From: a virus
Strand: one strand, 5' to 3'
IMG/VR virus record: IMGVR_UViG_3300034375_007338
Location: 1-53,782 of that record
DNA length: 53,782 nucleotides
The notes beneath the pieces are model-generated. The model worked only from the letters and a program-made list of their open reading frames with translations, searched no databases and was not told the DNA's origin. This document shows, in pieces, positions 1 to 53,136 of this stretch; position 1 is the stretch's first letter; every line of letters begins with the position of its first letter. The position numbers and the translations under genes are program-made.

Positions 1-299
1 CTACCCTTAGCTTGTTCGAGACGCTCAATAGTAATACTATCGGTCCCCCTAGCCAAACCACTAGTGCGACTAGTCCGCAACGGGTTAGGGTTCGGGACTA
101 GTTGCGTGTCGAGGAGGTCCTCGTCCTGGTAGACGAGATCCTTCGTGGTCTTCGTCCACCTGGAGGCTTGGGTCAGAACGGCATCGCGCTCATCCAGGAT
201 GAGATGGTCGGCAGCGTGAAGGAGCCCCAGGACGACGTGAAGGTCGTCGGCACACTTCACGGCATGCTCGTTATTCAGAACACGGATCAAGTCTACTGC
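1..299. repeat. left copy of near-identical 299-bp terminal direct repeat
   Basis: This segment aligns without gaps to 53484-53782. I count 11 mismatches, at 105, 111, 114, 120, 138, 165, 240, 249, 252, 258 and 264. The overlap implies a circular or terminally redundant molecule of about 53,483 bp. The two ends are not identical, so they are not simply the same reads placed twice. Confidence 0.95.
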
Positions 300-434
300 C
301 TGCGGGATAAGATCGTGCGCGTAGTCTAATGGCTTGCCCTCTTTAATAGTGTCCTGGACGGTGTCTAGCACGCGCTGCAGCGTCTCCTGGATGGCTTCGT
401 GGTAGTCGGCGCAGGTGAGGTCTTCGGCTTTCAT
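1..434 (-). CDS. hypothetical protein, N-terminal part (continues at 53453-53782)
   Basis: The gene runs off the left end of the window. Joining it to the right end across the terminal repeat gives a 154-residue protein that starts at ATG 434-432 and stops at 53453. It is mostly alpha-helical, acidic and soluble, with no signal peptide or membrane segment, and its C-terminus is rich in Ser, Thr and Arg. I do not recognise the family. Coding status is well supported because the two overlapping copies differ only at third codon positions and encode the same residues. No strong Shine-Dalgarno sequence precedes the start. The stop overlaps the start of a 35-residue membrane protein (53349-53456), so the two are probably cotranscribed. 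Confidence 0.85.
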   Translation of the reverse strand, partial: MKAEDLTCADYHEAIQETLQRVLDTVQDTIKEGKPLDYAHDLIPQAVDLIRVLNNEHAVKCADDLHVVLGLLHAADHLILDERDAVLTQASRWTKTTKDLVYQDEDLLDTQLVPNPNPLRTSRTSGLARGTDSITIERLEQAKG

Positions 435-614
435 GGTGGCTAATGGTAGGGCAAGCAAAATCGCTCGCATGTACATGGTAGCACACTTCGCGGCCTTTTT
501 GGGGCGGCAAAGTCAAAAATGCCTATAGGGATTTCCCTAGTGTATTATTGTGAGATTGTGGCTCCGCTCCTGGTGAATTATGGTAGGCGCAAAAAGTTAG
601 GGGCACTATTGAAT

Positions 615-710
615 AGCAAGCGGCAACTCTTAGCGGCTAGCAAGCGGCAACTCTTAGCGGCTAGCAAGCGGCAACTCTTAGCGGCTAGCAAGCGGCAACT
701 CTTAGCGGCT
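615..710. repeat. four perfect tandem copies of a 24-bp unit
   Basis: The unit AGCAAGCGGCAACTCTTAGC plus GGCT occurs four times without change (615-638, 639-662, 663-686, 687-710), followed directly by AGCTAA. The unit length is a multiple of three, so an open frame from 519 to 716 crosses it and would encode four SKRQLLAA repeats, but I see no other support for coding. The identity of the copies suggests recent expansion by slippage or unequal recombination. Confidence 0.95.
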
Positions 711-767
711 AGCTAATACGTTAGTGGCTTCCCACTTCGGCGCGCTCCTGGTGCTCGGGCTCCTGGT

Positions 768-810
<43 letters not shown>

Positions 811-870
811 TGCGTGGTAATGGGGACCGACCTAGACCTTTACAGACCTAGACCGATCCCCGACCTACCA

Positions 871-1173
871 CTAGGCGGTCTCTTGCTCCTGGAGCGCGCA
901 TGCTCGCAGGAACTCCAGCGTCTCCAGGATCTTCTCCTTGCTGCCCTTGATCCCGAAGTAAGCCTTCACGTCCTTCAATCGCCAATGGCGATGGGGCTTC
1001 ATGCCGTGACTGCAGAACATCCTCAAGTCGCGCACGCTGCAAAGCAGGTTCCACGTCGGCCAATCGAACTTCTTCGATCCGCCATCAATGAGAAGGTCGA
1101 ACGTCTGTTCGGCGTCGTCCAGGCCAGCCCAGAAAGGAGCGGAGAAGTCGAAATCTTTCGAAGTGAATTCCAT
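871..1173 (-). CDS. hypothetical protein, 100 aa
   Basis: The start is coupled to the upstream minus-strand gene through a TGATG overlap at 1171-1175, which supports translation of both as one operon. The protein has no membrane segment. It has an aromatic N-terminal half (FW and WPTW motifs) and a Lys/Glu-rich helical C-terminus. No family is recognised. The plus-strand open frames over the same bases are shadows. Confidence 0.75.
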   Translation of the reverse strand: MEFTSKDFDFSAPFWAGLDDAEQTFDLLIDGGSKKFDWPTWNLLCSVRDLRMFCSHGMKPHRHWRLKDVKAYFGIKGSKEKILETLEFLRACALQEQETA

Positions 1174-1388
1174 CAGAGAAGCCCCCTCGCTTTCGCGACT
1201 TCAGCGAACATCGAACTGTCGGCAGCCTGGACAGCGACGAACTCTTCGAAAGCTGAAGCCACGTCCCATCCCTCATCGAAGAAATCGCGATAGAAGAAGA
1301 GGTCGGGGAAATCGTGGAGCCCCATGCCGAATTCGGCAGAGATCATGCCGTCCAGGCGAGTAACCCATTCCTTGAATTTCATTCTCAT
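1173..1388 (-). CDS. hypothetical protein, 71 aa
   Basis: This is the first gene of a two-gene minus-strand operon with the 100-aa gene. Start candidates are ATG at 1388 and ATG at 1382; I chose the first. The protein is acidic with a Phe/Tyr/Asp-rich middle and an Ala-rich helical C-terminus, and is predicted soluble. The family is unknown. The hairpin array lies directly upstream, so promoter elements for this operon should sit at about 1390-1450. Confidence 0.75.
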   Translation of the reverse strand: MRMKFKEWVTRLDGMISAEFGMGLHDFPDLFFYRDFFDEGWDVASAFEEFVAVQAADSSMFAEVAKARGLL

Positions 1389-1479
1389 GTCTGAATAGTG
1401 GTAGGAGCGAGCCCGATTGGCTCGCCGTTGCCCCTATTCTAGCGTCCCTGCGAGGGGTTGCAAGGGTTCGGGAGCAAAA

Positions 1480-1909
1480 AATACCCCCTAGGATTCCCCT
1501 AGGGGTTTTCCCTAGGGTTGCCGCCGAAATCGCTGCGCGATTTCCCCTAGGGGTTTTCCCTTAGGGGAACCGACCTAGGGATCCTCCGACCTATCGCTAC
1601 GCGATTTCCCCTAGGGGTTTTCCCCTAGGGGTTCCGACCTAGTCCGACTGGGGATTTCCCCGAATCGCTACGCGATTTCCCCTAGGGGTTTTCCCCTAGG
1701 GGTTTCGACCTAGTCCGACTGGGGATTTCCCCAGGCAGGGAAAATCGCTTCGCGATGGGGTTTTCCCCTAGGGGTTTCTCCTCAGCCGACCGAGACTTTC
1801 CCTATTAGGGAAAATCGCTTCGCGATGGGGTTTTCCCCTAGGGGTTTTCCCATAGACGACCAAGAAATACCCCACCCAGGGAAATACCTGAGTGGGGTAG
1901 GGGAAAGCC
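1480..1909. repeat. left half of hairpin/palindrome array
   Basis: Five imperfect units of about 64-79 bp. Each has a small hairpin with a three-base loop: stem ATCGC/GCGAT, extended to AAATCGC/GCGATTT at 1527-1543. Hairpins start near 1527, 1593, 1663, 1744 and 1814, with loops TGC, TAC, TAC, TTC and TTC. A CCCCTAGGGG palindrome follows; in three units it is followed by TTTT and a second copy or variant, which together can fold into a 10-bp hairpin (arms 1544-1553/1558-1567, 1608-1617/1622-1631, 1679-1688/1693-1702). No gene is seen here. Confidence 0.85.
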
Positions 1910-2170
1910 CTAGCTTGTTTTTTGCTGGAGCTTCAGGGCCTTCTCAAGTTCTTGGCGAGTGAAGTTAGTCACCTTCTCCTCTCGCTTCCCGTAACGGACT
2001 TGAATACTGACAAGCCCCTTCTCCATATGGAGAAGTTCGGGGACCGTTGTATAGGTCGATCCCCACGGCGTATTAATGACGAAGTCTTTCGGCTCGATCA
2101 TGTCCGTCAGGAGCGCCTTCTTCGAATTGTAGACACGCCCATAAGCAGGCGAGAAATTTGCGAATCGCAT
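1910..2170 (-). CDS. hypothetical protein, 86 aa, embedded in the hairpin array
   Basis: The frame stays open upstream to 2248, giving 112 aa, but I prefer ATG 2170-2168. The residues before it are of low quality and overlap repeat-like DNA. The protein is basic at the C-terminus (Lys, Gln) with a beta-rich middle. No Cys motif or membrane segment is present, and I do not recognise the family. It lies between the two halves of the repeat array and is the only gene inside it. If transcribed from upstream on the minus strand, the left half of the array would be its 3' untranslated region. Confidence 0.65.
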   Translation of the reverse strand: MRFANFSPAYGRVYNSKKALLTDMIEPKDFVINTPWGSTYTTVPELLHMEKGLVSIQVRYGKREEKVTNFTRQELEKALKLQQKTS

Positions 2171-2329
2171 AGTTTGAAGTGGTGGGGAGTCGCCGGAGTG
2201 GCGATCTCGAAGATCAAATTGTACGGCGAAATCAAGGCTAGGAGACATAAAAAAATGGTATCTATTTTTAGGGGGTTACCCGTAGGTCACTAAGGGAGGG
2301 TTTTCCGTTTGGCGTGGTCCGGGTTTACC

Positions 2330-2840
2330 CGTAGTGTCAAGAGGGCTTTCCCTAGTTCAAGGGTATGACCTAGACCGACCCTGGTTCTCCCCGAAGTCGC
2401 AGAGCGACTTCCCCTAGGGGAAGTCCCGTAGGTGCATCGACTGGGGTTTTCCCCGAATCGCAAAGCGATTTCCCCTAGAGGTTTTCCCTTAGGGGAACCG
2501 ACCTAAGGGTTCCCCGACCTATCGCAAAGCGATTTCCCTTAGGGGTTTTCCCCTAAGGGGTCCGACCTATCGCAAAGCGATTTCCCCTAGGGGTTTTCCC
2601 TTAGGGGGTCCGACCTAGCTTCGCTAGGGTTTTCCCCTAGGGGTTTACCCATAGGCCGACCAGACTTCCCCCACCCTGGGGAAATCCCCTATGGGGCTAT
2701 GGGTAACTCCGTACCCGCTACAGGGAAAACCCCTAGGGGTTTATACTGTTAACAGACCCGACTTTCCCCTAGGGGAAATTACCTATTGGGCTATGGGTAA
2801 TTACCTATTGACACTACGGGTTTACCCATAGCCACATAAG
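2330..2840. repeat. right half of hairpin/palindrome array
   Basis: Five more units of about 45-64 bp. The small stems are GAAGTCGC/GCGACTTC (2393-2411, loop AGA), AATCGC/GCGATT (2456-2470, loop AAA), ATCGC/GCGAT (2521-2533 and 2569-2581, loop AAA) and CCTAGC/GCTAGG (2614-2628, loop TTC). A perfect 20-bp palindrome sits at 2406-2425. The pair 2536-2545 (CCCTTAGGGG) and 2550-2559 (CCCCTAAGGG) is exactly complementary across a TTTT loop. Weaker copies and a 12-bp direct repeat (2777-2788, 2799-2810) follow. Confidence 0.85.
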
Positions 2841-3461
2841 GGAGACCACCTACCAAAATAGGGACAACCCTTAGGGGTCAACCCTTACGTCTGAAACGCT
2901 CTGTGTTGGCCTGTGTTGGACGCTGGCCCGAACGTGGGCTAGGACCCTCAGACGAGACGAACGTCGATTTCTATGGGTATTCCCTATGTTTCGAGCGCCT
3001 GGCTATGGGTAATCCCCTAGGGGCAAGAGGGCTTACCCTGGAACGGGCCGGAACGGGCCGGAAGTGTTCCGGAGTGCCTCATTTTGATAAATAGCTATTG
3101 TTATTCATTAAACATAGCTACTAGTTACTAGTTATTTGTTACTAGTCTAATGTTTGTATATGCCATGCGGAACGGTCTAGAATAAATATAATTATTAATG
3201 AAAACCGCCCTGGAGACCATGCCAGTAACGATTTAGCCACCGCAGATCATACTAGGAACGGAACACCCCGCTCCCCCTTTTCTCTAAGAGAAAGAATAAA
3301 TATATATATACAACTAACCTATAGCATATAGCCCAGATCCGATCGGCTAGACGGTCGTTCCGGTGTTCCAGGCGACGAGGGTATTCCCCTAGGTGAAAGC
3401 CCATCGACAGATTCTAGACTCGGTCCGCCCCGTTCCCCTGGATTATGGTACACTTTAAAGG
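2841..3461. other. non-coding, including an AT-rich tract; candidate origin region
   Basis: No credible gene is present. At 3041-3060 there is a tandem pair of GAACGGGCCG. From about 3080 to 3210 and 3285 to 3335 the DNA turns strongly AT-rich, with three TTACTAGT copies and a TATATATA run, in sharp contrast to the GC-rich genes. CGGAACGG-like motifs recur (near 3168, 3256, 4549 and 4574). An AT-rich tract beside repeats resembles a DNA-unwinding element of a replication origin; this is inference. Confidence 0.4.
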
Positions 3462-3479
3462 CTAGGCAATTTCGCCTAG
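3462..3479. promoter_or_regulatory. inverted repeat upstream of the GP88-like gene
   Basis: CTAGGC and GCCTAG face each other across a six-base spacer, ending 18 bases before the chosen ATG at 3498. The position suggests an operator or an mRNA hairpin near the ribosome binding region. TACACT and TAGTAT nearby could be -10 elements, but I cannot assign one. Confidence 0.45.
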
Positions 3480-3497
3480 TATTTGCTCTCTAATAAC

Positions 3498-4391
3498 ATG
3501 AATCAAAAAATTACGCGCCGCTCGGCGTGCCTGGATATTCGTACCCGTTGGTCTTCTATTGTCGATAACGCTATCGACAACGGTCTTCGGAAAACGCTAC
3601 GGGATAGCGCGATCGATGCACTACCTAAAGGCGACACGTTTAACCTGTCACGCCCAAACTCGAGTGCCAAGGTGGATAAGGGAAGAAAGATCGGTATCGA
3701 TACCTTGATCCTTTATCTATCGCCAGCGGGAGAAGCTGTTACTAGCACATTGTGCGAGGATAGCGTTCCCGCTTGTCGTGCACTTTGCCTAGGCCATAGT
3801 GCTGGGCGAATGATCATGACACCTAGCAAGCTTGCTAGGCTCTGGCGAACTGCACTATGGCTAGGCGATAGGGAAGCGTTTATTCGCTTGCTTATCATGG
3901 ACCTGGAATCGCTGGCACTATCGGCTAAGAAACGCGGACACGTTACGGCGTTCCGTTTCAACGGCTCTACCGATATTGAAGTTCCCGACGTTATCCGCTC
4001 CACTTGCGAGCGCCTGGGCGTTAATGGCTACGGCTATACTAAGTCGCTAGCTCGTGCTATGGCTTCGGTAGGTACTCGATACCCTTTGACGTTTTCCTTT
4101 TCGGGTAACGTGGACCGAGCACTAGTCGCTAGGGACCACGGAGCGAACGTCGCTATGGTATTTGATACCGCTGTCGGCCAAGAATTGCCGGACGCTATCG
4201 TTCTCGGGCACGAGCCCGTAGGCGTTATCGACGGCGATATTTCCGACGCTAGGTTCCTGGATCCGAAAGACGCAGACGGCCGAGGACTTATCGTCGGTCT
4301 ACGCTTCAAAAAGGCGAAGGCCATTGATAAGGGTCTGAAACAAGCTATCCGCTCCGGATGGGTTGTGGAAGCCGATAGGGTAGCCTTTTAG
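3498..4391 (+). CDS. GP88/DUF7227-like protein, 297 aa
   Basis: The pattern of motifs resembles the GP88/DUF7227 family of phage and plasmid proteins of unknown function. A Cys cluster lies near residues 86, 93 and 97 (CEDSVPACRALC). It is followed by an RFNGSTDI segment, a YGYTKS segment, a TFSFSGN strand, GANVAMVF, and a C-terminal DGD...FLDP...GLIVGL block. An in-frame TTG at 3483 could add five residues; ATG 3498 is preferred. The gene shows the same CTAG-rich base usage as the surrounding non-coding DNA, unlike the structural genes. It stands alone between a repeat-rich leader and a strong terminator. Its place beside the AT-rich tract suggests, without proof, a role linked to replication or repeat DNA. 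Confidence 0.7.
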   Translation: MNQKITRRSACLDIRTRWSSIVDNAIDNGLRKTLRDSAIDALPKGDTFNLSRPNSSAKVDKGRKIGIDTLILYLSPAGEAVTSTLCEDSVPACRALCLGHSAGRMIMTPSKLARLWRTALWLGDREAFIRLLIMDLESLALSAKKRGHVTAFRFNGSTDIEVPDVIRSTCERLGVNGYGYTKSLARAMASVGTRYPLTFSFSGNVDRALVARDHGANVAMVFDTAVGQELPDAIVLGHEPVGVIDGDISDARFLDPKDADGRGLIVGLRFKKAKAIDKGLKQAIRSGWVVEADRVAF

Positions 4392-4409
4392 GCTACCCAC
4401 TAAATAACA

Positions 4410-4437
4410 GGGGGACCCTACGGGGTCCCCTTTTTTC
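4410..4437 (+). terminator. rho-independent terminator after the GP88-like gene
   Basis: GGGGACCC (4411-4418) pairs with GGGTCCCC (4423-4430) across a TACG loop and is followed by six T. This is the clearest intrinsic terminator in the window. Confidence 0.9.
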
Positions 4438-4451
4438 GTTTCCGTCCGGCG

Positions 4452-4600
4452 GGAGCTGGAACCCGTCGCCCTGGAGCTGGAACCCATCGCCCTGGAGCTG
4501 GAACCCGACCCCCACGACCCCCACGACCCCTTGACTCGACCCGACCCCGGAACGGCAGACTCGACCCGACCCCGGAACGGCAGACTCGACCCGACCCCGG
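4452..4600. repeat. two adjacent sets of short tandem repeats
   Basis: First set: a 21-bp unit beginning GGAGCTGGAACCC (4452-4472, 4473-4493, partial at 4494-4511), then a CCACGACCC duplication. Second set: a 25-bp unit beginning ACTCGACCCGACCCC (4534-4558, 4559-4583, partial at 4584-4600) that contains CGGAACGG. The remainder to 4735 is non-coding and should hold the promoter of the following gene run. Apart from a short GAAGC/GCTTC hairpin near 4705 I see nothing else in it. Confidence 0.9.
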
Positions 4601-4735
4601 ACTGCGGGTTTACCCGAACCAGACTACAGACATAAAGCGCCCCGGAATTAGCTCCTGACTCTGTACACCTCTGGACCGTTTGCTAGACTGACCGAGTCGC
4701 TGAAGCATTCCGCTTCGGCCCAACTCCTACCTATC

Positions 4736-5143
4736 ATGCGAACCTACATCGCTCGCGGCTCCAACGCATGGAACGCCGCGACTAACAAGACGGAGGCGGT
4801 CATCCGCCTGATGGCCCGAGGGGTCTCCCTCGACAAGATCGCCCTGGTCTCCACCGAGGGCCGGGCCACGGTGGACTGGAACGGGTCCGTGAACTCGACC
4901 CAGAGCATCCGCGACGAGCGGCTCACCTTCGGTGAGTTGGCCGACGCCCTCTACGATCGGATGACGGACGTGCAGGAGGTCCTGGCCAAGCTCCTGGAGG
5001 ACGACGTGCTGGCCACGAAGGACTTCCCCACGTCGGCTCAGGACTACCTGGAGGAAGCCACGAAGCGCGTGGGGGACCTCGTGGACCATCCCATGAGCGA
5101 CCTGGAGTCGAACCTCCTGGAGAACGGGGAGGTGAAGTCGTGA
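4736..5143 (+). CDS. hypothetical protein, 135 aa (first gene of the early operon)
   Basis: This is the first gene of a long plus-strand run with almost no gaps. It starts at ATG 4736 after a non-coding leader. The N-terminal half is basic, with a possible small alpha/beta fold. The C-terminal half is a long acidic helix with heptad-like hydrophobic spacing. No catalytic motif, membrane segment or family is recognised. Its stop overlaps the next GTG start by four bases. As promoter-proximal gene of the run it could be an early host-takeover or regulatory protein, but that is position-based guesswork. Confidence 0.8.
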   Translation: MRTYIARGSNAWNAATNKTEAVIRLMARGVSLDKIALVSTEGRATVDWNGSVNSTQSIRDERLTFGELADALYDRMTDVQEVLAKLLEDDVLATKDFPTSAQDYLEEATKRVGDLVDHPMSDLESNLLENGEVKS

Positions 5144-8885: not shown

Positions 8886-11594
8886 ATGCCCGGACTCCTC
8901 ACGTTCCCTACCCGTTATGTCCCCGGCTACGGACCCGACCGCCCGCTCACAGCAGGGGGAAACTGGTTCGAAGGCACGACCGCGTTCACACAGCGGTTTG
9001 ACTCTGCTGCCCACGGCGTCTGCTACGAGCCCGTGCTCGTCGATGGCCTCGCTGTAAGACTGACGAAGCCTGCCGTTCGCCAGAACATCATCAAGCCCGA
9101 TCAGGTGCGCTGCCAGTGGATCGCGGTGGACGTGGACCTGCCGGGCAAGGCCGACTGGACCGAGGCGCTCCTGGGCGAGCACAACGCGCTGCTGGAGGCT
9201 CTGCCCTACCCTCTCAACCAGTGGCTCTACTGGCACACGACCGAGCACGGGTATCACCTGTGGTACTTGCTCGACGAGACCGTGATGCCGCACCAGCACG
9301 AGAGTCTGTCTCAGTCCGTGCGCGACGGGCTGGTCCTCAACGGGGTCGAGGCCGACGAGACCTGCCGCGACTGGACGCGCCTCGTGGCGCTGCCCAGGAT
9401 CATCAAGGAGAACGGCATCAGCACTGCCGAGCAGCCCTGGTTCTCCGAGCGGTGGCAAGCTGGCGAAGACGGGCTCGCACTCACGCTCCAGGTCGGGTCG
9501 ATCTCTGTCGCAGCGGCAACGCCTTCCAAAGGCCCGGCCATGCCCGTCTCGACCGGGTCTGGTCCCTCATTTGCCTACAGCCCCGAGGACGCGCTCGGGC
9601 TCGTCTACACGCACGGCGACCTGGACTACCCGACCGAGAAGGGGCGCATCCTTCGCAAGGCGGTTGAGAGCAGCCTCATGCGGGCCGGGAACCATACCAT
9701 CGCCGCCGAGCAAGTCCTCGACGGTCAGCCCTTCCCGCAGGGGATGCGCGACACGTCCGTGGCACAGACCGTGGGCTGGCTGGTCTCGAAGGCCCGGTCG
9801 GTCTCAGCCAAGGGCATCACTCCCGACCACCTGCTCGGGCTGCTCTTGCCCGCGTGCCAAGCGACAGACATCGACTCAGGTCCGCAGGACAACGGCAGGC
9901 CGTGGATCGAGAAGGCGGCAGAGAAGACCCTGGAGTACTGGCGCTCAGACGAGGAGTCTGCTGCACGCAAGCAAGTCGAGCTGATCCGCAAGGCACAGAA
10001 CTCGACCACGCCCGAGGGCCTGTGCGACCTTCTCTACAACAAGCTGAAGGACCCGCTCCTGAACCGTGCGACCAACGAAAGCTGGTACGAGCAGCTTCAG
10101 ACGTATGCGTTCGTTCAGACCTCGGCCACTAGCGTGTTCTGCCTCGCACCCAACGGCTGCTACCAAGGGCCGTTCCCCTCGTTCCTGATGGCGATCGGGA
10201 TGTCTGCACGGAATGGGGTCGGGGTACTGCTCGGCGTGCGGTGGATCGACGACTCGGGCAAGACCAAGGAGATCTCTGAGTCGAGCGCCAAGAAGGACTA
10301 CTGCCGCTTCGCGACGGTCGAGCGGCAGGTCTATCACCCGCTCTCGATCCCTGAAGAGGATCGCTTCGAGCCTACGCGCCTGGACCAGCAGCAAGTGTGC
10401 CTCTTCGAGCGCAAGTTCAGGCCGCAGGAGATCGCCGCCGCACGCAGCGAGTGGGTCGAAAAGTACCTGCACGTCCTGACCGGGTCGTCGCCCGAAAAGC
10501 TCACCGAGGACTACAGGCAGCTGATCTACTGGCTGACCTACCTGCGAGACTTCGACAGCTCGCAGCTGCCCATGCTGTACATCTACGGCACCGCTCGTTC
10601 GGGCAAGACTCTCCTGGGCAACGCCATTGAGATGCAGGCGGCGACCGCTCGCCCGAGCACTGCCGGGGGCAACTACAACTCGCACTACGCCAAGGGCCTG
10701 ATCCTGATCTACGACGACGTGCAGCCGATCTCCTACGGCAACCACGGGCAGATGAAGCGGGCCTTGGGCGAGTTCCTGAACGTACTGTCGGGTCAGCAGG
10801 TCGAGGTCCACGAGAAGTACAAGGACGCGCGGGGGCTTCAGTACCCCTGGCGCGTGGTCGTGCTCAACAACTCGTCGGCGTTCTTCGACGACCTGATGCA
10901 GTCCCACAATTCGCACTCCGACCGAGACAAGCGAGACGCCCTGGCTCGTCGAAGCATTCTGCTCAAGGTCAACCCGTACTGCCGCGAGTGGTTGTTTGAC
11001 AATGCTAGGGGCCGGGCCGACGTGGTTTCGGAAGTCGCCGCGCACATCGCGTGGATGAATCAGAACCGTGAGGAGCTTCAGCCCATCTTCTCGGAGTATG
11101 AGAAGCTCGCGGAGCCCGGAGGCATGCGCCTCGTGTCGAACACTCTGGCGATGGGGACCGCAGAGTCTTCGCAATCTCTGGACGAGATTCAGATGATCGC
11201 CGCCGTGGTCCGTCAGCTGTCGAAGTGCCTCCGGTCGAGCATGATCAACGACAACTACGCGATCATGGATCGCTCGGGACAGGTCCTGGCTGTGCGCGGG
11301 GCCTTGATGGAAGCTCTTGGGGCCAAGGAAGCGACGACTTCGCAGCGGTTCCACATGAAGCAAGCCATTGGCTCGGTCATGAACCAGTGCGGAGTCAGTG
11401 CTACTCAAGGCACTGCCATGCAGAAGGTCGAGGGGCAGTGGGTCGAGTCACCCACCAAGTCAGGCAAGCGGCGATGGTTCGCACTCGACTTCCAGGCGCT
11501 CTCGCATTTCTGCGAGTTCCTGCCGCCGGGGATCGACCACACAGTGCAGGAGCTGATCGAGGAGTGCCAGGAGGTACGAGACCTTGGACTATAA
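8886..11594 (+). CDS. AEP-type primase fused to SF3 helicase, 902 aa
   Basis: The N-terminal domain carries archaeo-eukaryotic primase signatures: WIAVDVD with metal ligands D82 and D84, GYHLWYL with H124, and RDWTRLVALPR around D162. The C-terminal half is a superfamily 3 helicase: Walker A GTARSGKT at about 568-575, Walker B LILIYDD at about 605-611, and a sensor-like VVVLNNSSAF near 657. Such fusions (D5/PrimPol-helicase type) prime and unwind DNA at phage replication forks. ATG 8886 is the first in-frame ATG. It is the first gene of the replication module, and its end overlaps the frame of the nuclease gene. Confidence 0.9.
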   Translation: MPGLLTFPTRYVPGYGPDRPLTAGGNWFEGTTAFTQRFDSAAHGVCYEPVLVDGLAVRLTKPAVRQNIIKPDQVRCQWIAVDVDLPGKADWTEALLGEHNALLEALPYPLNQWLYWHTTEHGYHLWYLLDETVMPHQHESLSQSVRDGLVLNGVEADETCRDWTRLVALPRIIKENGISTAEQPWFSERWQAGEDGLALTLQVGSISVAAATPSKGPAMPVSTGSGPSFAYSPEDALGLVYTHGDLDYPTEKGRILRKAVESSLMRAGNHTIAAEQVLDGQPFPQGMRDTSVAQTVGWLVSKARSVSAKGITPDHLLGLLLPACQATDIDSGPQDNGRPWIEKAAEKTLEYWRSDEESAARKQVELIRKAQNSTTPEGLCDLLYNKLKDPLLNRATNESWYEQLQTYAFVQTSATSVFCLAPNGCYQGPFPSFLMAIGMSARNGVGVLLGVRWIDDSGKTKEISESSAKKDYCRFATVERQVYHPLSIPEEDRFEPTRLDQQQVCLFERKFRPQEIAAARSEWVEKYLHVLTGSSPEKLTEDYRQLIYWLTYLRDFDSSQLPMLYIYGTARSGKTLLGNAIEMQAATARPSTAGGNYNSHYAKGLILIYDDVQPISYGNHGQMKRALGEFLNVLSGQQVEVHEKYKDARGLQYPWRVVVLNNSSAFFDDLMQSHNSHSDRDKRDALARRSILLKVNPYCREWLFDNARGRADVVSEVAAHIAWMNQNREELQPIFSEYEKLAEPGGMRLVSNTLAMGTAESSQSLDEIQMIAAVVRQLSKCLRSSMINDNYAIMDRSGQVLAVRGALMEALGAKEATTSQRFHMKQAIGSVMNQCGVSATQGTAMQKVEGQWVESPTKSGKRRWFALDFQALSHFCEFLPPGIDHTVQELIEECQEVRDLGL

Positions 11595-11625
11595 GAGCGA
11601 TAGCTTTGATCCGCCCAAGGGCGCG

Positions 11626-13230
11626 ATGGTTGCAACCACAACTTCGATCAAGGAGTGGAAGGACTGTAAGCGCAAGTGGTACTTGACCCGCGTTGCCGGG
11701 ATGCCCCAGCCCGCTAACGCCGCGTTTAGGATCGGTTCGATCTTGCACCTGTGTGTGGAGCGTTGGCTGCTGTGCCCTCAGGACACCGTCCCGGCACCGG
11801 GGCAGCTCCCTGACCAACCTGTGGACGAGCATGGCAACTATGGCTCCGGCAGCGTCCTGTACAACCAGACCCCCGGCAACCAAGTCGATCTATTTCCCCA
11901 CGAGTGGTGGAAGTACCAAGACCGAGACGGGCGCTGGAACGAGATCGACGAGCCCGATCAAGAGCTAGTCAAAGCCCTGGTGCGAGAGGGAATCTCTAAC
12001 GGCACCGTGGTGCGGCTTCCCGAGGGGCAGGTCGAGAAGAAGTTCTGGCTCCCCTTGGACGGTAACCAGGGCCTGCTCTGGCTCACCTCCCTGGCTGACT
12101 ACCACAGCGCCCCGTTGGCCACGCTCGAAGACCACAAGACCACCAAGTCCCTCAGGTGGGCCGTCAACGAAGACACGATCGCTGACAACTACCAGCTTCA
12201 GATCTACGCGCTCTGGATGTGCGACGAGTATGAGATCGAGGACGGAGTTCACGTCGCGCACAACATCTTCATCAAGGACTACCTGAACCCCCGCACAAAA
12301 AAGGTGCAAGGGTTCATCTCCAAAGACAGGACCGAAGAAATGCGGAGCTACCTCCGCTCTACCGTTCAGGAGATGCTAGACTTGAGGGACGCCTCTCCCG
12401 ATTGGGAAGAGGTCACTCCGAATTGGTCGTCGTGCGATTCCTACGGCGGCTGTGTCTATCGAGGCATCTGTTCAAACCTCGAATCCATTTCTGATTTTCA
12501 ACTACGCATGAACCCTCCCACCCCTACCTCGCCTCAACTCGCTTCCGGTCCCCCTCCCCTGGCTAACTCAGCTCCTGCTGTAGCCAAGCCGAACCTTGAG
12601 ACAGCACGAGGCAAAGCCCCCTGGGCTGCTCCGGCGTGTCCTGTGTGCGGGGGACTAGGCGTTCAGATCAACGGCAGTGCGTGCCCTCACTGCCAGACCA
12701 TCACGGGCATCCTGCCCATGAACTACACATGGGGCTGGAACACTCAAGGTGACTTTGAGGTCTGGCACGATGCCCCTGAGCACACTCGTGCCGCCGCGCC
12801 CGAGCCCGAGCCGGAGCCCGAGCCCACGCCGGGTCCTGAGCCCGCCGCTCCCGTCGAGGTCCCTGACCAAGGTTTTGGAGACCGCCTGAAGGTCGTCGGC
12901 AAGGAAGGCTACAAGGGCAAGGGACGCCCGCCCAAGGCGTTCACCCTGTACATCGACTGCTTGCCTTCAGGAGGCATTGAGAAGGTGTGGCAACTCTCAG
13001 CCGCACTGAAGGTCATCAGCGACCTGTACCAGGAGCGCGTTGGAGAGAGCTACTGGGCGGCTGACACATGGAAGCGAAGAGACTTTCAGCAGCTTTGTCT
13101 CCCTGACGTGATCGCCGCTGTGGACAAGGAAGCTGTCTACGTCAATAGCGACATCTACGAGATCAAACAGCTGGCAGGGATGCTCGAAGCTCACGCGGGC
13201 AAGGTCGTTCGAAGCACTGCTTCTCGATGA
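11626..13230 (+). CDS. RecB/Cas4-like PD-(D/E)XK nuclease with C-terminal zinc-ribbon extension, 534 aa
   Basis: Residues 1-285 show the RecB-family fold: H41/E45 in GSILHLCVE, D158 in LADYH, the D169-H-K171 core and QxxxY at 190-194. Cys14 together with C270, C276 and C282 match the four-Cys iron-sulfur arrangement of Cas4/AddB nucleases. After a Pro-rich linker come two CxxC pairs (CPVCGG, CPHC), a Glu-Pro repeat, and a C-terminal domain of about 110 residues that I do not recognise. An alternative TTG start at 11584 would add 14 residues. It probably works with the following helicase in end resection, recombination or host DNA degradation. Confidence 0.85.
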   Translation: MVATTTSIKEWKDCKRKWYLTRVAGMPQPANAAFRIGSILHLCVERWLLCPQDTVPAPGQLPDQPVDEHGNYGSGSVLYNQTPGNQVDLFPHEWWKYQDRDGRWNEIDEPDQELVKALVREGISNGTVVRLPEGQVEKKFWLPLDGNQGLLWLTSLADYHSAPLATLEDHKTTKSLRWAVNEDTIADNYQLQIYALWMCDEYEIEDGVHVAHNIFIKDYLNPRTKKVQGFISKDRTEEMRSYLRSTVQEMLDLRDASPDWEEVTPNWSSCDSYGGCVYRGICSNLESISDFQLRMNPPTPTSPQLASGPPPLANSAPAVAKPNLETARGKAPWAAPACPVCGGLGVQINGSACPHCQTITGILPMNYTWGWNTQGDFEVWHDAPEHTRAAAPEPEPEPEPTPGPEPAAPVEVPDQGFGDRLKVVGKEGYKGKGRPPKAFTLYIDCLPSGGIEKVWQLSAALKVISDLYQERVGESYWAADTWKRRDFQQLCLPDVIAAVDKEAVYVNSDIYEIKQLAGMLEAHAGKVVRSTASR

Positions 13231-15227
13231 GGACTCTCCAGCAGGACAACCAACGCATAGCGCAGCTGCCTGTGATGCCTCGTCCCACCGAAGAGTGGGC
13301 CGTGGAGTACTCGAAGCACGTCACGCTCGCGTCTGCTCCACTTAACCCGGACGGCTCACCGTTCACGTTGAAGCTGGAGCAGGCGTGGGCGCTGGCGAGC
13401 TACCAGCAGTACGGCGGCTTCTTCGCGCCTATCCCCGTGGGCGGCGGCAAGACTTTGATCTCTTTGTGTGTGCCGCACATCGGCTTCAAGTTCCGTGGGC
13501 ACAAGAAGGCCATGCTGCTAATCCCGCCCAGTCTGGGCGACCAGCTCATTCAGCGAGACCTGCCCTGGGTCCGCGAGCGAATGCCGCTGGGGTACAACTG
13601 GTACAGCCTTGTCGGCAAGTCAAAGGCCGCGCGGACCAAGATCATCAGCAAGGACCGTCCGGGGCTCTACATCGTGCCGTACACGGCGCTGTCTAACCTC
13701 GACGGACTGGAAGTCATGCGAGGCATTTCACCTACGCTGGTGATTGCCGACGAAGCCCATACGTTGGCCAACGACTCGGCCCGCTCAAAGAGGTATTGGG
13801 GCGTGCTTCAGGAGATCGAGCAAGCTCAGGGTCGTCCTGTCGAGTTCTGCGCGTTGTCTGGCACGATGGCAAAGAAGCGGCTCAAGGACTTCTGGAAGCT
13901 CATGCGTCAAGCGATGGGTGAGAACGCGCCGCTGCCATTGAACTCTCAGAACCTCGACGAGTGGGACGAGACGATGGCAGCAGACGGCAACAACTACATC
14001 ACCCTTGCGTGCTCCTGGTTGCCTCCCTGGGCCGAGATCCAGTTCCCTGACGAGAAGTTCACGCGAGACACCGTAGGCGCACGAGCGGCCTTTCAGGCCC
14101 GTCTGAAGAGCGCCCCTGGCGTGATCACGGGAGGTGACGCTTCCTGCGCCGCCGACTTGAAGATCGGTCACTTCGAGGTGCCGGACGATCCTGGGGCAAA
14201 GGGCTGGGACGAGCTTCAGCAGATGAAGCACAACCTGGAGACCCTAGGCATGAAGCCGAACGGCGAGTTGGTCTCTACGCCGATGCACATCTACAACATC
14301 TCAGCCGAGCTGTCTTGCGGGTTCTACAACGACCCGTTCTGGCCAGAGGCTGAGGTCGTATCTCGACGCAAGGAAATCTCAGTCGCAGAAGCGGAGGTGC
14401 TGCTTGATCGCTCGAAGCGATACCTTGAAGCAGACCAGACGTACCGTTCTGTGCTGTTCCCGTGGGTGCGGTCCAGCCCCCTGGGTTTTGACTCTGACCT
14501 ACAGGTCGGCCAGAAGATCGCTAACGGAGAGACGCAGGGTATCGACTCTGCGGTCGTCCAAGGGTGGCATGAACGGCAAGCAGCTGACTTCGAGCATCGC
14601 ATCGAGAGAGATCACCGCTACGTCATGGTCTGCGACTGGAAGCTGGACGCCGTGGTCTCGCGGGTCAAGCGCGTCGTGAAGGACCGAAAGACGGGCACCC
14701 TGGTGTGGGCACATAACCACGCAGTGGTGGATCGCCTGATCGAGAAGCTGCAAGGGGCCGGGTTGGAGACTTACGGCGTCAGTCCTCGTCACGCGAAGCG
14801 CAACATGGACCTGCTGTACGACAAGAGCTACCGCAACTGCGTCTTCGTCTTGAGCCTGGGCCGCTGCGCTCACGGGCTCAACCTTCAGCACAACTTCCAC
14901 ACGAACGTCTACGCCCAGGTCGTCCGCTCGGCAGCGTACTTTGAGCAAAGCCTGGGCCGCACGCACCGCCAGGGGCAGCAGGCCGAGGAGGTTTACGCTG
15001 AGGTCGTGTTGACGGAAGGAACCGATCACGATACCCTCGGAGCGTGCCTCGTTGAGGCGACGTTTACCCACCAAGTTTTGGGTAATGATCACAAAGCTAT
15101 CTTGGCGGCATGGGATCCGCCTCCGCGACTGCCCCCGCCCGAGATGCTTAGGAGCAAGGTGCCGAACGTAGAATCTTTGGCACCATCAGTAGCAAGGGAG
15201 TACCTCCGTAGGTTCGGATGTGCCTGA
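13227..15227 (+). CDS. SNF2-like SF2 helicase/translocase, 666 aa
   Basis: Helicase motifs in order: I (PVGGGKT, residues 70-76), II (DEAH at 175-178), III (ALSGT), V (GLNLQ) and VI (QSLGRTHRQGQ, arginines near 578-581). The RQGQ form of motif VI is typical of SNF2-like enzymes. It overlaps the nuclease gene by four bases and probably acts with it on branched or recombining DNA. There is no separate DNA-binding domain I can name, and the C-terminal 60 residues are unassigned. Confidence 0.88.
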   Translation: MRTLQQDNQRIAQLPVMPRPTEEWAVEYSKHVTLASAPLNPDGSPFTLKLEQAWALASYQQYGGFFAPIPVGGGKTLISLCVPHIGFKFRGHKKAMLLIPPSLGDQLIQRDLPWVRERMPLGYNWYSLVGKSKAARTKIISKDRPGLYIVPYTALSNLDGLEVMRGISPTLVIADEAHTLANDSARSKRYWGVLQEIEQAQGRPVEFCALSGTMAKKRLKDFWKLMRQAMGENAPLPLNSQNLDEWDETMAADGNNYITLACSWLPPWAEIQFPDEKFTRDTVGARAAFQARLKSAPGVITGGDASCAADLKIGHFEVPDDPGAKGWDELQQMKHNLETLGMKPNGELVSTPMHIYNISAELSCGFYNDPFWPEAEVVSRRKEISVAEAEVLLDRSKRYLEADQTYRSVLFPWVRSSPLGFDSDLQVGQKIANGETQGIDSAVVQGWHERQAADFEHRIERDHRYVMVCDWKLDAVVSRVKRVVKDRKTGTLVWAHNHAVVDRLIEKLQGAGLETYGVSPRHAKRNMDLLYDKSYRNCVFVLSLGRCAHGLNLQHNFHTNVYAQVVRSAAYFEQSLGRTHRQGQQAEEVYAEVVLTEGTDHDTLGACLVEATFTHQVLGNDHKAILAAWDPPPRLPPPEMLRSKVPNVESLAPSVAREYLRRFGCA

Positions 15228-15255
15228 GCTAACAACCACGAGACTAGAGATAGAG

Positions 15256-15888
15256 ATGAACGAGAACGCCCCCACCCTTCCTCCGAACGCCCCGCAACAG
15301 ATGGCTGCTCAACCGCAGCCCCTGAGCTTCGACTTTTCCGAAGGTGATTCGAAGCAGGTCATGCAAGGCAGCGGCCCGACTTTCCAGCCGGGCACCTACT
15401 GGTGGACTCTGACCAAGGTCGAGTACCGCCAGTCCAAAGACCCTCAGAAGTCCGGCGCGATGCTGGCCATCATTGAGGGTGTGATCACCAAGAACCTGTC
15501 CGCTGACGGCACCGGGGAGTCTCCGGGCGTCACCCGCGCTTGCGTCTTGGTGAAGAGCAACGAGTTCGGCTTCTATCCGACCATCCGCAAGTTCCTGGCT
15601 TGCCTCCAGGAGATCTCGGACCCGAACCAGACTCGCACCAACTCGTTCAACGACGTGCTCAACAACCCGGCGACCTACGCTGGGGTGACGCTCAAGACGC
15701 GAGTCACTCAGAAGATGTCCAGGGCGAACCGCCCGTACAACATCTTCGATTGGGACGGCATCGTCTCCGACGCGGAAGTCGATGCTCACTTCGCAACGAA
15801 CCCTGAGCTTGACCTCCTCGCTCGACCCTCCGGCAGTAGGGCCGCGCAAGGTCTCGGATCTCCTTCTCAGTACTTTGTCACGAAGTAG
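15256..15888 (+). CDS. putative single-stranded DNA-binding/DUF669-like protein, 210 aa
   Basis: ATG 15256 is preferred over GTG 15220 because it is preceded by a purine-rich AGAGATAGAG stretch. The N-terminus is Pro/Gln-rich and flexible. The core (PGTYWWTLTKVEYRQSKDPQKSG, then a long helix and NRPYNIFDWD) resembles the DUF669-type proteins that often sit between helicase and polymerase genes and are thought to bind ssDNA. Its position just before the polymerase supports that role. The evidence is pattern and context, not a catalytic motif. Confidence 0.6.
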   Translation: MNENAPTLPPNAPQQMAAQPQPLSFDFSEGDSKQVMQGSGPTFQPGTYWWTLTKVEYRQSKDPQKSGAMLAIIEGVITKNLSADGTGESPGVTRACVLVKSNEFGFYPTIRKFLACLQEISDPNQTRTNSFNDVLNNPATYAGVTLKTRVTQKMSRANRPYNIFDWDGIVSDAEVDAHFATNPELDLLARPSGSRAAQGLGSPSQYFVTK

Positions 15889-15913
15889 GACTCAGTTGGC
15901 AGACTGAGGTCTA

Positions 15914-15953
15914 GGGGGGAGCTTTTGGTAGGGGCTTCCCCCGTTTCTATTTG
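15914..15953 (+). terminator. hairpin followed by T-rich tract, before the polymerase gene
   Basis: A G-rich arm (15914-15922) pairs imperfectly with GCTTCCCCC (15934-15942), and GTTTCTATTT follows. This probable intrinsic terminator separates the helicase operon from the DNA polymerase, so the polymerase may have its own promoter. Confidence 0.65.
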
Positions 15954-15961
15954 AGGTTGCT

Positions 15962-18277
15962 ATGCGCTTCTACGGCATCGACACAGAGACGTTCCCTATT
16001 TCAGGAACGCACCCATACCCGCAAATGGTCTGCGCTCAGATCTCATGGCAAGACTCTGATCGAGTTCGTGCCTGGGTCGCCAGCGCCAAGTGCGACCGGG
16101 ACCAGCTCCTTTCGTTTTTGCAAGGGGTCCTGGCAGACCCAGAGGCGAAGTTCGTGCTGGCCAACGCGCAGTTCGACATGATCGTTCTCTCGCTCTGGGA
16201 GCCTTTGCTGGAGCCCTTGATTTGGGAAGCCTACGCCCAAGGCCGCGTGGTCGATATCTTGACGATGCACAAGATGCTGGCCTTGGCCGAGTGGGGCGAC
16301 ATTGACAGCACGCCGTTTGATGATCCGAACCGTCAGGCAGAGTACAGCCAAGCGTCATTGACCCGGTGGTACTTGGGAAAAGACCGTGCTCAAGAGAAGA
16401 AGAGCAGCGTCCGCACGGAGTACTCGTTCGTAGACGGGGTGCCAGTAGGCGAGTGGGAAGAGGAGTTCGTCAGGTACGCGATGGATGACGCTGCTGACCT
16501 GATCGTCATCCTGGAGCGCCTTCTGAACCGATCAGACAAATCCCTTGGGCGCGAAACCCTACTACGACTGGCGGGGAAGCGAGCTGCCAAGCATCTCGCC
16601 CTTGGCTGGATGACTTACAACGGGATGCGCGTCGATAAGGAGCGCGTCCTCTGTGTGGAAGACGAGGTTGAGACTGAGCTTGACCTTTCAAACTTCCCGA
16701 ACTTGATCGAGCAGGAAATCATCATCCCCCCGCAGCCTCCGGTGCCTTACGCCAACGGTGCCAAGGCTCACGTCAAAGGCTGCAAGACCCCAAAGACGTG
16801 CGAGTGTCCCCCTAAGCTCGCCGCAGCAAAACGTGAGGTGCTCAAGCGCAAGAAGCTCCAAGACTTGATGCTTTCCGCCGCCAGGAAGGCACCGAATTTC
16901 AAGCTGGCACTGACGGACAAAGGCGTCTCAGAGCACGACGCTATGTTCGGGGAGCGGGTCAAGTCTCTACCCGCAGTGGACGAGAAGTTTGACCAGCACC
17001 CTGAGTGGGTCTCGACTAACAAGAAGGTGTTCACGCCGTTGGTCCCTTTTGACGAGACCGTAGCGGAGTACGCACGAAGGGCAGCAGTCATCAAGATGCG
17101 AACGGACTACGTCCATCGCTTCTTCTGGGACGTAGGCAACGGGATGCCTAAAGCAAAGGCAATGGTTCAAGCGTCGAAGTCCACGGAGGCGCAGAGCGAC
17201 AGCTTCAATGCGGAAGCGATGGACATCCAAGTGACAGACCGGATGCGGTTCAACTTCAAAGAGTTGGTCTCGACGGGGCGCACTGGTTCGTTCGCCGGAA
17301 CTCTTTACCCGTCGATGAATGGGCAGAACCCTGACCCGCGCATTCGCGTGGCCCTGGTCGCGGACCCTGGCTACATCCTCTACTCAACCGACTACGGTGC
17401 CCTGGAGCTGCGCTGCGCTGCGTGGCGGTGCCTTCAGGAAGGGATTGACAGCGTCCTCGTCAAGCTGTTTCGGGACGGCAAGTGCCCGCACCAGTACCTC
17501 GGTGCCGCGCTCTTGAGGGACCTGGGAGAGAACGTCCCGATGGACCTGCGAGGGGCGCAGGGCATGGAAGCCTATGCCGCTTTCGAGGCCCTGAAGAAGT
17601 CTGACCCCAAGCTGTTCAAGATGTGGCGCACCCTAGCCAAGCCGACCGGACTGGGAAACTGGGGAGGCATGGGTCCTGCGACTGCTCTCGTGACGGCGCA
17701 CGCGCCGCCGTACAACCTGACGCACATCACCTTGGATCAGATGACTGCAGCCCGTGAAGTCTGGCGTGCCGAGTTCCCCGAGTGGTCAGAAGCCTTTAAC
17801 GTCTTCAAAACGAAGCTCGTGGATGAGGAGTTCTCTCATTACGACCAGGAGGGCGAGCGCCAGACCCGGTACATGGTCATCACTCCTGGCGGAATGGTCC
17901 GACGAAACTGCGTGTACACCGTGGCCGCGAACGGTTTGCTGCTCCAGCCCCCGTCTGCTGAGGGCGTTGGCCACGCAGTCTTCGACTGTGTTCGGGCCAG
18001 TCGGGACGTTTCGCAGGGCAGCGCCGCCTACGGCGCGGTGTTCGTGGACTTCCTGCACGACGAACTTCTGTACCAGTTGCCCGAGCACGAAGACTTCGAC
18101 CGCACGGAATCCATGCGGCACGAGATCGAGCGCCTTATGTGCGAAGGCGTAAATAAGGTTCTCACAGGCATTCCGATGACCGTAGAATCGGCGGCGATGT
18201 ACCGCTGGGACAAGTTCGCCCCTGAGACATTCGACGAGCAGGGGCGCTTGGTTCCTGCCGACAAACCAATTCTCTAA
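15962..18277 (+). CDS. family A DNA polymerase with 3'-5' exonuclease domain, 771 aa
   Basis: The N-terminus holds the exonuclease Exo I motif (GIDTE, D7 and E9). The polymerase palm shows motif A (TDYGALELR, D477), motif B (RTLAKPTGLGNWGG, R556 and K560) and motif C (HDE at 699-701). Between the exonuclease and polymerase parts lies an insertion of about 100 residues with Cys-rich HVKGCKTPKTCECPP, possibly a small zinc-binding element, which I do not recall as a standard feature. No 5'-3' exonuclease domain is present. It replicates the phage genome together with the primase-helicase. ATG 15962 follows a terminator. Confidence 0.93.
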   Translation: MRFYGIDTETFPISGTHPYPQMVCAQISWQDSDRVRAWVASAKCDRDQLLSFLQGVLADPEAKFVLANAQFDMIVLSLWEPLLEPLIWEAYAQGRVVDILTMHKMLALAEWGDIDSTPFDDPNRQAEYSQASLTRWYLGKDRAQEKKSSVRTEYSFVDGVPVGEWEEEFVRYAMDDAADLIVILERLLNRSDKSLGRETLLRLAGKRAAKHLALGWMTYNGMRVDKERVLCVEDEVETELDLSNFPNLIEQEIIIPPQPPVPYANGAKAHVKGCKTPKTCECPPKLAAAKREVLKRKKLQDLMLSAARKAPNFKLALTDKGVSEHDAMFGERVKSLPAVDEKFDQHPEWVSTNKKVFTPLVPFDETVAEYARRAAVIKMRTDYVHRFFWDVGNGMPKAKAMVQASKSTEAQSDSFNAEAMDIQVTDRMRFNFKELVSTGRTGSFAGTLYPSMNGQNPDPRIRVALVADPGYILYSTDYGALELRCAAWRCLQEGIDSVLVKLFRDGKCPHQYLGAALLRDLGENVPMDLRGAQGMEAYAAFEALKKSDPKLFKMWRTLAKPTGLGNWGGMGPATALVTAHAPPYNLTHITLDQMTAAREVWRAEFPEWSEAFNVFKTKLVDEEFSHYDQEGERQTRYMVITPGGMVRRNCVYTVAANGLLLQPPSAEGVGHAVFDCVRASRDVSQGSAAYGAVFVDFLHDELLYQLPEHEDFDRTESMRHEIERLMCEGVNKVLTGIPMTVESAAMYRWDKFAPETFDEQGRLVPADKPIL

Positions 18278-44700: not shown

Positions 44701-44874
44701 ACGTTCGGGAAGCTGGTCCAGGACATCCCTGAAGCGGTCCCCTCGGCTGAAGAGATCGCAACTGCGGTATGGAACAAGCTCATTGCTGACCACCAGGGCG
44801 CAGGGTCCTTCGGGGAGCTTTCACAACAAACCAAACTGGCCGCTGATCGTGCGGGCACTCAGAGGCTACAGTAA
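38722..44874 (+). CDS. very large modular beta-helix tail fibre/adhesin, 2050 aa
   Basis: GTG start. The protein is made of six tandem modules of about 312-347 residues. Each starts with TIGP.GRDY.TF.LAEA, continues with a conserved cap (DITFTNRAFVFEADA.TY, LTTDATRNVTYK), then a variable Asn/Thr/Val/Cys-rich core with NC and NN ladders typical of right-handed parallel beta helices. Modules close with TTSFSTPLG.GDYAVYMG, then VTGNDVWQQGVGPG and DINGVARSG. The last 70 residues (VWDVMYGSHNIPGTFGKLVQ...) look like a separate C-terminal tip. It should bind host surface polysaccharide. No catalytic motif was seen. Confidence 0.8.
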   Translation: MVTVIIKTIGPTGRDYTTFALAEADTSNIGTSADLVANDEAIVFEADDTTFTTASTLNIANTALTVDATRNVSYTAASGRPVYEYTGTGTGVAFFDPYTRWSGIDVLASSGSAATQVRANSGYGAAQAGTVIENATITASVSAVSCEKFATGHALGTSSEPITLRNLVTKSIVAVSQFISGTGHTTGAHCLVVNCTHLGGSSPNQVWNWALTGGMPDASFKIINCANLAQNTSNDANITGGGVDISGSTNNIGNAAGSNSSFHFANIGGGIGAQYTPTTSFSTPLGSGDYAVYMGSNGSLANVTGNDVWQQGVGPGTNSDVPTTDINGVARSGATCNPGAFEADGFVAPTVTTQTIGPVGRDYATFTLAEASLPAEDITFTNRAFVFEADAATYSESVTFDSSLTTDATRNVTYKAAAGSEHGGVPGQGVRIQFGNLSLSSACVGVNDPFTAVKGLEFDWTDSGGTGRPAETQKNIEGVTFSDCIIRSAGTGVVFQSTQSNTSDTQSFPVQVSNCVLDGSSADGFRLWNYGASDKAWTVTNCTIRCSGRAFDIFSSTNNSTYTITNNLILSAAEDLRDQGGGGTNTVLGSNNFGPQTSATHVFPDAIKGSPYPITATTSFSTPLGSGDYAVYMGATGALANVTGNDVWQQGVGPGTNSDVPTTDINGVARSGASCNPGAFEADGFVAPTITTQTIGPVGRDYATFILAEASLPAEDITFTNRAFVFEADAATYNEIITFQSSLTTDATRQVTYKPATGSEHGGDKDAGVIIDGASTTPVNLRDSYMALRGLNIKSQVTAVYLALPTTGRVLEGLIIGPSTTTGGYTQVREGADQTVFRNCVFRDTGAWGVNFNPATVNGSNSCAFLNCTFFASTSAIIDQPSVAASVTLLNNLFLTGSIAYSEHANTTSTGSNNYAAGALSPVALQGSPYPITPTTSFSTPLGAGDFAVYMGSNGSLANVTGNDVWQQGVGPGTNSDVPTTDINGVARSGATCNPGAFEADGFVAPTVTTQTIGPVGRDFATFTLAEASLPAEDITFTNRAFVFEADAGTYSESVIIDHALTCDPTRNVTFQSATFDIAHIETDASFGVLQIRDGVFTTLRRLQITNTNTGAACRGVEIIPASGDSCEGCTLDGLTVTGANSANFTAFEVELNTGAAAGGAGSAAHPSVLQNCVALGTGSGIGIAGGATGEIHARIVNCTLAGTGLAAISIQTPSDVTVEVVNTINLSHAQTFRTLFTTGALTTSGSNNFGNTTQPFPDAIKGSPYPITATTSFSTPLGSGDYAVYMGATGALADKPGNDVWQQGVGPGSNGDVPTTDINGVARSGASCNPGAFEADGFVAPTVTTQTIGPVGRDYATFTLAEASLPSEDITFTNRAFVFEADAATYSENVYFGSTLTTDATRNVTYKPAAGSEHGGVVGAGVVINSASINFFRDSFMLFEGIEVNGSSTQTLNIDACTGTVTRRCIINATTQGFVIGNTVLAVEVSNCVISSNNYSFLLQCSTGAQAVTLYNNTILDGPSGLVAIRVLQSGTATISLDAVNNLMLNGAGVYLASGTVTVTGSNNFGGSTSPWPAAIQGSPYPVTASTAYDPGAGDFALYVGKNGALLDSPNNDVINGGVGPASNSDVPTTDILGDTRSGTTTNPGAFALAQATAVLTRTIGPVGRDYATFTAAEADVENIGGSADLVFENERIEFLADAGTYTTILNPNSGLTTDATRNVTYKPAVGSEHGGVVGAGVVIDTGASNSPVFVDDDFTVIDGLNLATTTMYCAWILGSGIVMRNCIATAFNRGFLIYGGQSSAPNILENCVSRGGPSFAFLVLGGGPVSADAHARIVNCTGSSTGNDAFRNQATVSGTSATAEYINCLSLSSPTYQTIGSFATATGSNNFGGSYNPFPAALQGSPYPITPTTNTTPGFGDYAIYEAATGALIVVDDNAALGGGVGPAANADVPVFDINGVKRIGGGCDPGAFEGVRSRSTDVWDVMYGSHNIPGTFGKLVQDIPEAVPSAEEIATAVWNKLIADHQGAGSFGELSQQTKLAADRAGTQRLQ
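38743..44650 (+). repeat. six in-frame ~1-kb repeat modules within the fibre gene
   Basis: The ACNATCGG...GG.CGNGACT start of each module lies at 38743, 39784, 40801, 41755, 42763 and 43699. Spacings are 1041, 1017, 954, 1008 and 936 bp, all multiples of three. Flanking caps (about 250 bp each side) are very similar in DNA between modules 2 to 5, while the cores differ, so the caps could serve as homology for recombination between modules. Confidence 0.85.
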
Positions 44875-45794: not shown

Positions 45795-46177
<383 letters not shown>

Positions 46178-53071: not shown

Positions 53072-53136
53072 AGGGGCCAGCCTACACCGCCTTGCAGACC
53101 TAAGAGGAAATTTTTGTGTGTGTGTGGGATCTCCCT

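Follow-up and report, generated by a model that had tools for sequence, protein, structure and literature searches.

Phage and plasmid origins of the iteron type, or rich in palindromes, carry repeated sites beside AT-rich DNA, and repeats together with AT-rich DNA at divergent genes are a frequent look of an origin or early control region. GOLLD and ROOL are large phage-associated non-coding RNAs. For the repetitive hairpin-forming elements of organelle DNA an origin by slippage and template switching has been proposed, and mitochondrial DNA already offers examples of repeated hairpins in which the stem is fixed and the loop free to vary (PMC2800124). Template switching between the arms of a hairpin can produce matched changes in a single mutational step (PMC8794818). 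In the N4 promoters the small triloop hairpins, whose loop contains a sheared G-A pair, are extruded at supercoiling below the physiological level (PMC4496689), and DNA mini-hairpins of the GCGAAGC type are unusually heat-stable (PMC10527192).

The hairpin array described here was found in a viral record that was analysed as a whole (the window, 53,782 bases, AT content 40%). The genome encodes a major head protein (phrog_29), a portal protein, a head protease, tail proteins and a terminase, and the virus is therefore a tailed phage. A family A DNA polymerase, a helicase, a PD-(D/E)XK nuclease and endonuclease VII are also encoded, and the replication genes of the phage lie at 8886-18277. The first and the last 299 bases (1-299 and 53484-53782) are 96% identical. 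Their 11 differences all affect third codon positions within a single leftward gene, whose protein is the same in both copies, indicating a true circular overlap between strains rather than a chimeric assembly, which had been considered; the imperfect terminal overlap is best read as one between alleles of two strains. Close relatives were few. They amount to five contigs (G001-G005) from this phage or a sister phage, four of them matching at 97-100% over most of the length and the fifth at 64% in the head protein. Their coverage ends at about 49.2 kb and about 5.3 kb of the window, outside of which lie the array and the junction, and the present contig is the only one to represent the sequence from about 51.9 kb through the junction and on to 5.3 kb. 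Queries with GP88, the small ORF P0001 (see below) and the helicase found no further relatives.

Some features elsewhere in the genome were recorded in passing. A 2050-aa protein without family match is encoded at 38722-44874, a segment with internal DNA repeats about 1 kb apart, to which G001 aligns in rearranged pieces only and G002 aligns through at 99.6%. A PAS-domain protein is encoded by the phage at 19122-19667 (minus strand); its gene and that of the portal protein belong to one short leftward cluster. Of the perfect stems listed in the hairpin scan, the longest was a 16-bp inverted repeat with a 4-base loop in the tape-measure gene (30816-30851).

An earlier note had claimed at least ten triloop hairpins in a single array covering 1480-2840. 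Ten were present at the places given, five in block 1 (1526-1826) and five in block 2 (2393-2628); the repeats do occupy the region claimed, but as two blocks split by a small ORF and not as a continuous array. In most units the triloop hairpin is followed by two 10-mer palindromes of the CCCCTAGGGG type across a TTTT loop. The composite units are spaced by 48-80 bp, the distances between the nine TCGCNNNGCGA cores being 64, 71, 80 and 70 in block 1 and 61, 64 and 48 in block 2. The sequence ATCGCNNNGCGAT occurs eight times in the genome, every time in the array, and its reversed control does not occur. The elements are as follows.

1485-1517: left end of block 1, CCCCTAGG-ATTCC-CCTAGGGG plus CCCTAGGG-GTTTT-CCCTAGGG
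Within 1485-1517, read on the minus strand: terminator-like hairpin CCCCTAGG-ATTCC-CCTAGGGG, then GTATTTTTTG
1526-1544: triloop hairpin GAAATCGC-TGC-GCGATTTC, minus-strand loop GCA
1528-1641: 114-nt segment, duplicated at 2456-2569 (89% identical)
1544-1567: palindrome pair CCCCTAGGGG-TTTT-CCCTTAGGGG, single G-U on the plus strand
1593-1605: triloop hairpin ATCGC-TAC-GCGAT, minus-strand loop GTA
1608-1631: palindrome pair CCCCTAGGGG-TTTT-CCCCTAGGGG, perfect
1663-1677: triloop hairpin AATCGC-TAC-GCGATT, minus-strand loop GTA
1679-1702: palindrome pair CCCCTAGGGG-TTTT-CCCCTAGGGG, perfect
1744-1756: triloop hairpin ATCGC-TTC-GCGAT, GCGAAGC on the minus strand, inside a GGGAAAA...TTTTCCC palindrome (1738-1767)
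1814-1826: triloop hairpin ATCGC-TTC-GCGAT, GCGAAGC on the minus strand, inside a GGGAAAA...TTTTCCC palindrome (1808-1837)
1868-1899: 13-bp hairpin, right end of block 1, single G-U on the minus strand
2393-2411: triloop hairpin GAAGTCGC-AGA-GCGACTTC, with the sole double-sided change among the triloop stems
2456-2470: triloop hairpin AATCGC-AAA-GCGATT
2472-2495: palindrome pair CCCCTAGAGG-TTTT-CCCTTAGGGG, one A-C and one G-U on the plus strand
2521-2533: triloop hairpin ATCGC-AAA-GCGAT
2536-2559: palindrome pair CCCTTAGGGG-TTTT-CCCCTAAGGG, perfect, with the second double-sided change
2569-2581: triloop hairpin ATCGC-AAA-GCGAT
2584-2607: palindrome pair CCCCTAGGGG-TTTT-CCCTTAGGGG, single G-U on the plus strand
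2614-2628: triloop hairpin CCTAGC-TTC-GCTAGG, GCGAAGC on the minus strand
2634-2775: degenerate right end of block 2, more CCCCTAGGGG palindromes at 2634, 2730 and 2766

The plus-strand G-U pairs at 1544-1567 and 2584-2607 are those that had been claimed. At 2472-2495 the claimed A-C mismatch was accompanied by a G-U on the same strand; the arm at 2486-2493 pairs perfectly also with 2502-2509. A hairpin with the CCTAGC stem does exist at 2614, but it is not clearly homologous to the other units.

Hairpins with a stem of at least 6 numbered 22, compared with 3.1 ± 1.8 in first-order Markov controls (maximum 11, n = 200), and triloops with a stem of at least 5 numbered 13, compared with 2.2 (maximum 8). 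A comparison of folding energy, proposed earlier as a check, gave z-scores of -7.9 to -9.8 on either strand. The array is thus real, and an origin by chance is excluded.

When nine units were aligned, differences were found in 16 of 360 pairwise comparisons of stem positions, as against 64 of 108 for the loops; the three loop columns were the most variable of the 13 aligned columns. Because the stems are nearly frozen while the triloops vary, the stems look constrained. The units are paralogous and the independent events therefore few, by our count about five loop changes versus one stem-pair change; the contrast between stem and loop is real, though based on few events. The evidence from covariation is thinner. 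Stems had been said to change on both sides together, and two such changes were found, one replacing A-T by G-C in the stem at 2393-2411 and the other C-G by T-A at 2536-2559, but each occurs in a single unit among the seven that could be aligned, and 15 of 500 shuffles reached the same level of covariation, a test made with paralogous units of one genome only. One pair of 10-base arms across TTTT had likewise been described as exactly matched, and arms of this kind are perfect at 1608-1631, 1679-1702 and 2536-2559. However, CCCCTAGGGG reads the same on both strands, so that direct repeats of this 10-mer always pair and such pairs carry no evidence of covariation; among the TTTT arms only 2536-2559 genuinely tests pairing. 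The claim of selection for the fold is supported for the stems, chiefly by their near-invariance beside variable loops and less by matched changes.

Searched with a covariance model of the unit, the genome gave six full-length matches within 1520-2609, each on the plus strand, and weaker pieces only as far as about 3020; neither the remaining genome sequence nor the fragments of the related contigs contained a copy. As judged from the shared 114-nt block and from full units in one orientation at one locus, the array is the product of tandem expansion in place and not a mobile element with dispersed copies.

The two blocks flank the small leftward ORF P0001, beside the point where leftward and rightward genes diverge. 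Leftward genes supported by codon usage are those in 871-1388 and the gene spanning the junction. The surrounding features are these.

1436-1463, minus strand: promoter-like TTGCAA-16-TAGAAT just left of block 1, directed towards the genes at 1388 and 1173
1916-2170, minus strand: P0001 (85 aa), ORF between the blocks, with weak coding support by codon usage
3061-3200: the 100-bp stretches with the highest AT content in the genome (as much as 73%), candidate origin in the divergent intergenic region
3483-4391, plus strand: GP88 family gene (PF17338 / phrog_1617), first rightward gene

Searches found no relatives of P0001, and its predicted fold is of low confidence (pLDDT 56). The divergent intergenic region (2171-3482) includes block 2 as well as the AT maximum of the genome (3061-3160), within which short direct repeats are located at 3115-3142. 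Lying at the switch between leftward and rightward genes and adjoining the most AT-rich DNA that the genome has, the region probably combines an origin with early control functions. GC skew gave no clear origin signal at the array region. The analysis identified neither an initiator or hairpin-binding protein nor an origin, the neighbours P0001 and GP88 being without an assigned replication role.

The composition of this part of the genome is unusual. In the segment running from 53072 across the junction to 4450, CTAG is about 9-fold enriched and GC is lower relative to the rest, and the GC3 of GP88 is 0.51 as compared with 0.69-0.84 in the tested core genes; the block may possibly be acquired DNA. 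Other minisatellites lie at 53121-53190, 52922-52981 and 4452-4601.

The explanation that we tentatively favour, while granting it somewhat less than an even chance, is that DNA hairpin sites have been amplified in tandem within the non-coding control region of this tailed phage, whose genome is circular. The stems would act as DNA, by cruciform extrusion or by folding in single-stranded DNA, and the hairpins, judging from their position and the constraint on the stems, would be putative sites at which a replication or transcription protein binds or is stalled. Copies would have been produced by slippage or duplication, and matching of the arms may be maintained by template switching between them. 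A hint towards DNA, partial and post hoc, comes from the loops. Read from the minus strand, every loop of block 1 conforms to GNA (GCA, GTA, GTA, GAA, GAA), as does that of the last hairpin of block 2 (2614-2628, GAA); d(GCGNAGC) is present on this strand in six of the ten hairpins, in three of them as exact GCGAAGC. The remaining four loops (AGA and three times AAA on the plus strand) have no GNA on either strand.

The alternative that survives best, although we regard it as rather unlikely, is a hairpin minisatellite without function, whose palindromes were created and homogenised by slippage and template switching with no selected role. The same non-coding stretch is crowded with other tandem repeats (24 bp x 4.2 at 100% in 614-713, 18 bp x 3.9, 12 bp x 5 and 25 bp x 2.8), and a (CGAGCC)n run at 45833-45885 has 18 gapped bases relative to strain G001, indicating that slippage is active in this phage. 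Double-sided changes would need only one step of template switching (PMC8794818), and sponge mtDNA elements with conserved stems and variable loops have no known function (PMC2800124). What such a process accounts for less well is that the stem sequence itself, beyond its pairing, is nearly frozen. Template switching that is neutral should by itself allow the stems to drift, stem pairs changing about as fast as loops, and neutral duplication would be unlikely to yield this contrast. The loop changes, moreover, are not mutual reverse complements, so loop inversion is no explanation for them.

A structured RNA, one of the roles envisaged in the earlier note, is a more distant prospect. In a leftward P0001 message, block 2 would form part of the 5' leader and block 1 would belong to the 3' region, with a function in termination or stability or as a non-coding RNA. 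The folding energy of the minus strand is indeed very low (z -8.3), the minus-strand end of block 1 has a terminator-like hairpin with T6 (1505-1477) and then the promoter-like site (1463-1436), and terminator-like sites are more numerous in 1-5000 than in shuffles (13 versus 5.3 ± 2.5). However, in RNA folding the plus strand is as good as the minus strand, and DNA folding is nearly equal. Deviations from pairing are G-U on the plus strand at 1544-1567 and 2584-2607, and on the minus strand at 1868-1899 and at the A-C of 2472-2495. The Rfam covariance-model search yielded no family, its only two matches being far under the gathering scores. With no strand preference in folding or G-U and no Rfam family, an RNA of one strand is not indicated; the internal hairpins, in addition, lack T-runs, and changes at the level of pairs amount to two.

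Insertion of mobile double-hairpin elements at this locus, also suggested earlier, is very improbable: the unit is modular and double-hairpin elements are known in fungal and sponge mitochondria (PMC2800124), but all six full-length units have the same orientation at one locus, and none is present elsewhere in the genome or in the fragments of the related contigs. N4-like promoters, i.e. supercoil-extruded triloops recognised by a phage RNA polymerase, have the least to recommend them, for although the minus strand of six of the ten hairpins has a C(GNA)G loop, as in N4 (PMC4496689), on a stem of 5-8 bp, no RNA polymerase match was obtained among the three proteins of more than 1000 aa (those with matches belong to tail families), a GNA hairpin on the template strand would have block 1 read rightward, opposite to the local genes and with no supported rightward gene before 3483, and ten copies in about 1.1 kb are unlike a promoter arrangement. 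A profile search with PF00940 gave no match, and neither did its control.

Within the favoured reading of the array as amplified DNA hairpin sites in a control region, a more specific version can be formulated, which we consider unlikely. The ten hairpins would be extruded by supercoiling and read by shape, stem and loop closure being kept while the loop letters are largely free, as a replication or early-control element. If true, this would be a 'hairpin-iteron' control region of a kind previously undescribed, going beyond single sites such as the N4 promoters. A functional array would represent a multi-copy DNA-shape signal in the control region of a dsDNA phage, and the natural set of paralogues with frozen stems and varied loops makes shape recognition directly testable. 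A non-functional one would be a clean natural case of slippage and template switching creating seemingly compensatory changes in hairpins, and a caution for covariation-based RNA discovery from single genomes.

The statement that the unit is undescribed held within the reach of the phage, viral-contig, genome and literature searches. A blastn search of the unit against phage records found none, and three unit patterns gave 0, 0 and 3 unrelated pairs in viral contigs. The search in other phages and hosts that had been called for detected no exact 20-mer core in viral contigs (records very near the window possibly excluded) or in 257 Gb of prokaryote genomes. Two CCCCTAGGGG sequences 2-8 nt apart were found in the 257 Gb as 17 scattered, isolated pairs, none of which was likewise array-like on inspection. 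Picocyanobacteria were rejected as a source of the motif, TTTCCCCTAGGGG having 6 matches in 150 genomes, below the reversed control. The nearest bacterial look-alike seen was a short run of palindromes in an Oxalobacteraceae MAG (L030 1080-1125), consisting of two CCCCTAGGGG, CCCCAAGGGG and CCCTTAGGGG. In a limited literature search no precedent was found for an oriented local hairpin array in a phage control region.

Compared with the described systems, the array shares with GOLLD and ROOL a strongly structured non-coding phage region of several hundred nucleotides, but differs from them in having no Rfam match and no strand preference. The early promoters of the N4 vRNAP resemble it in being short-stem DNA hairpins with a three-base loop of the GNA type closed by C-G; N4, however, has three single sites (PMC4496689), whereas the array has ten copies and additional CCCCTAGGGG palindromes, with no vRNAP found and a direction that is wrong for the local genes. 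The mitochondrial RHE and double-hairpin elements are dispersed over organelle genomes (PMC2800124), unlike the array, which occupies one locus in one orientation and is unrelated in sequence; yet both are non-coding and modular, with single and double hairpins, conserved stems and variable loops, and in both the double hairpins arise through tandem arrangement. From iteron-type origins the array departs in that its repeats are hairpins, not simple direct iterons, and in having neither an identified initiator gene nor support from skew; what it has in common with them is repeats beside AT-rich DNA at a divergent intergenic region.
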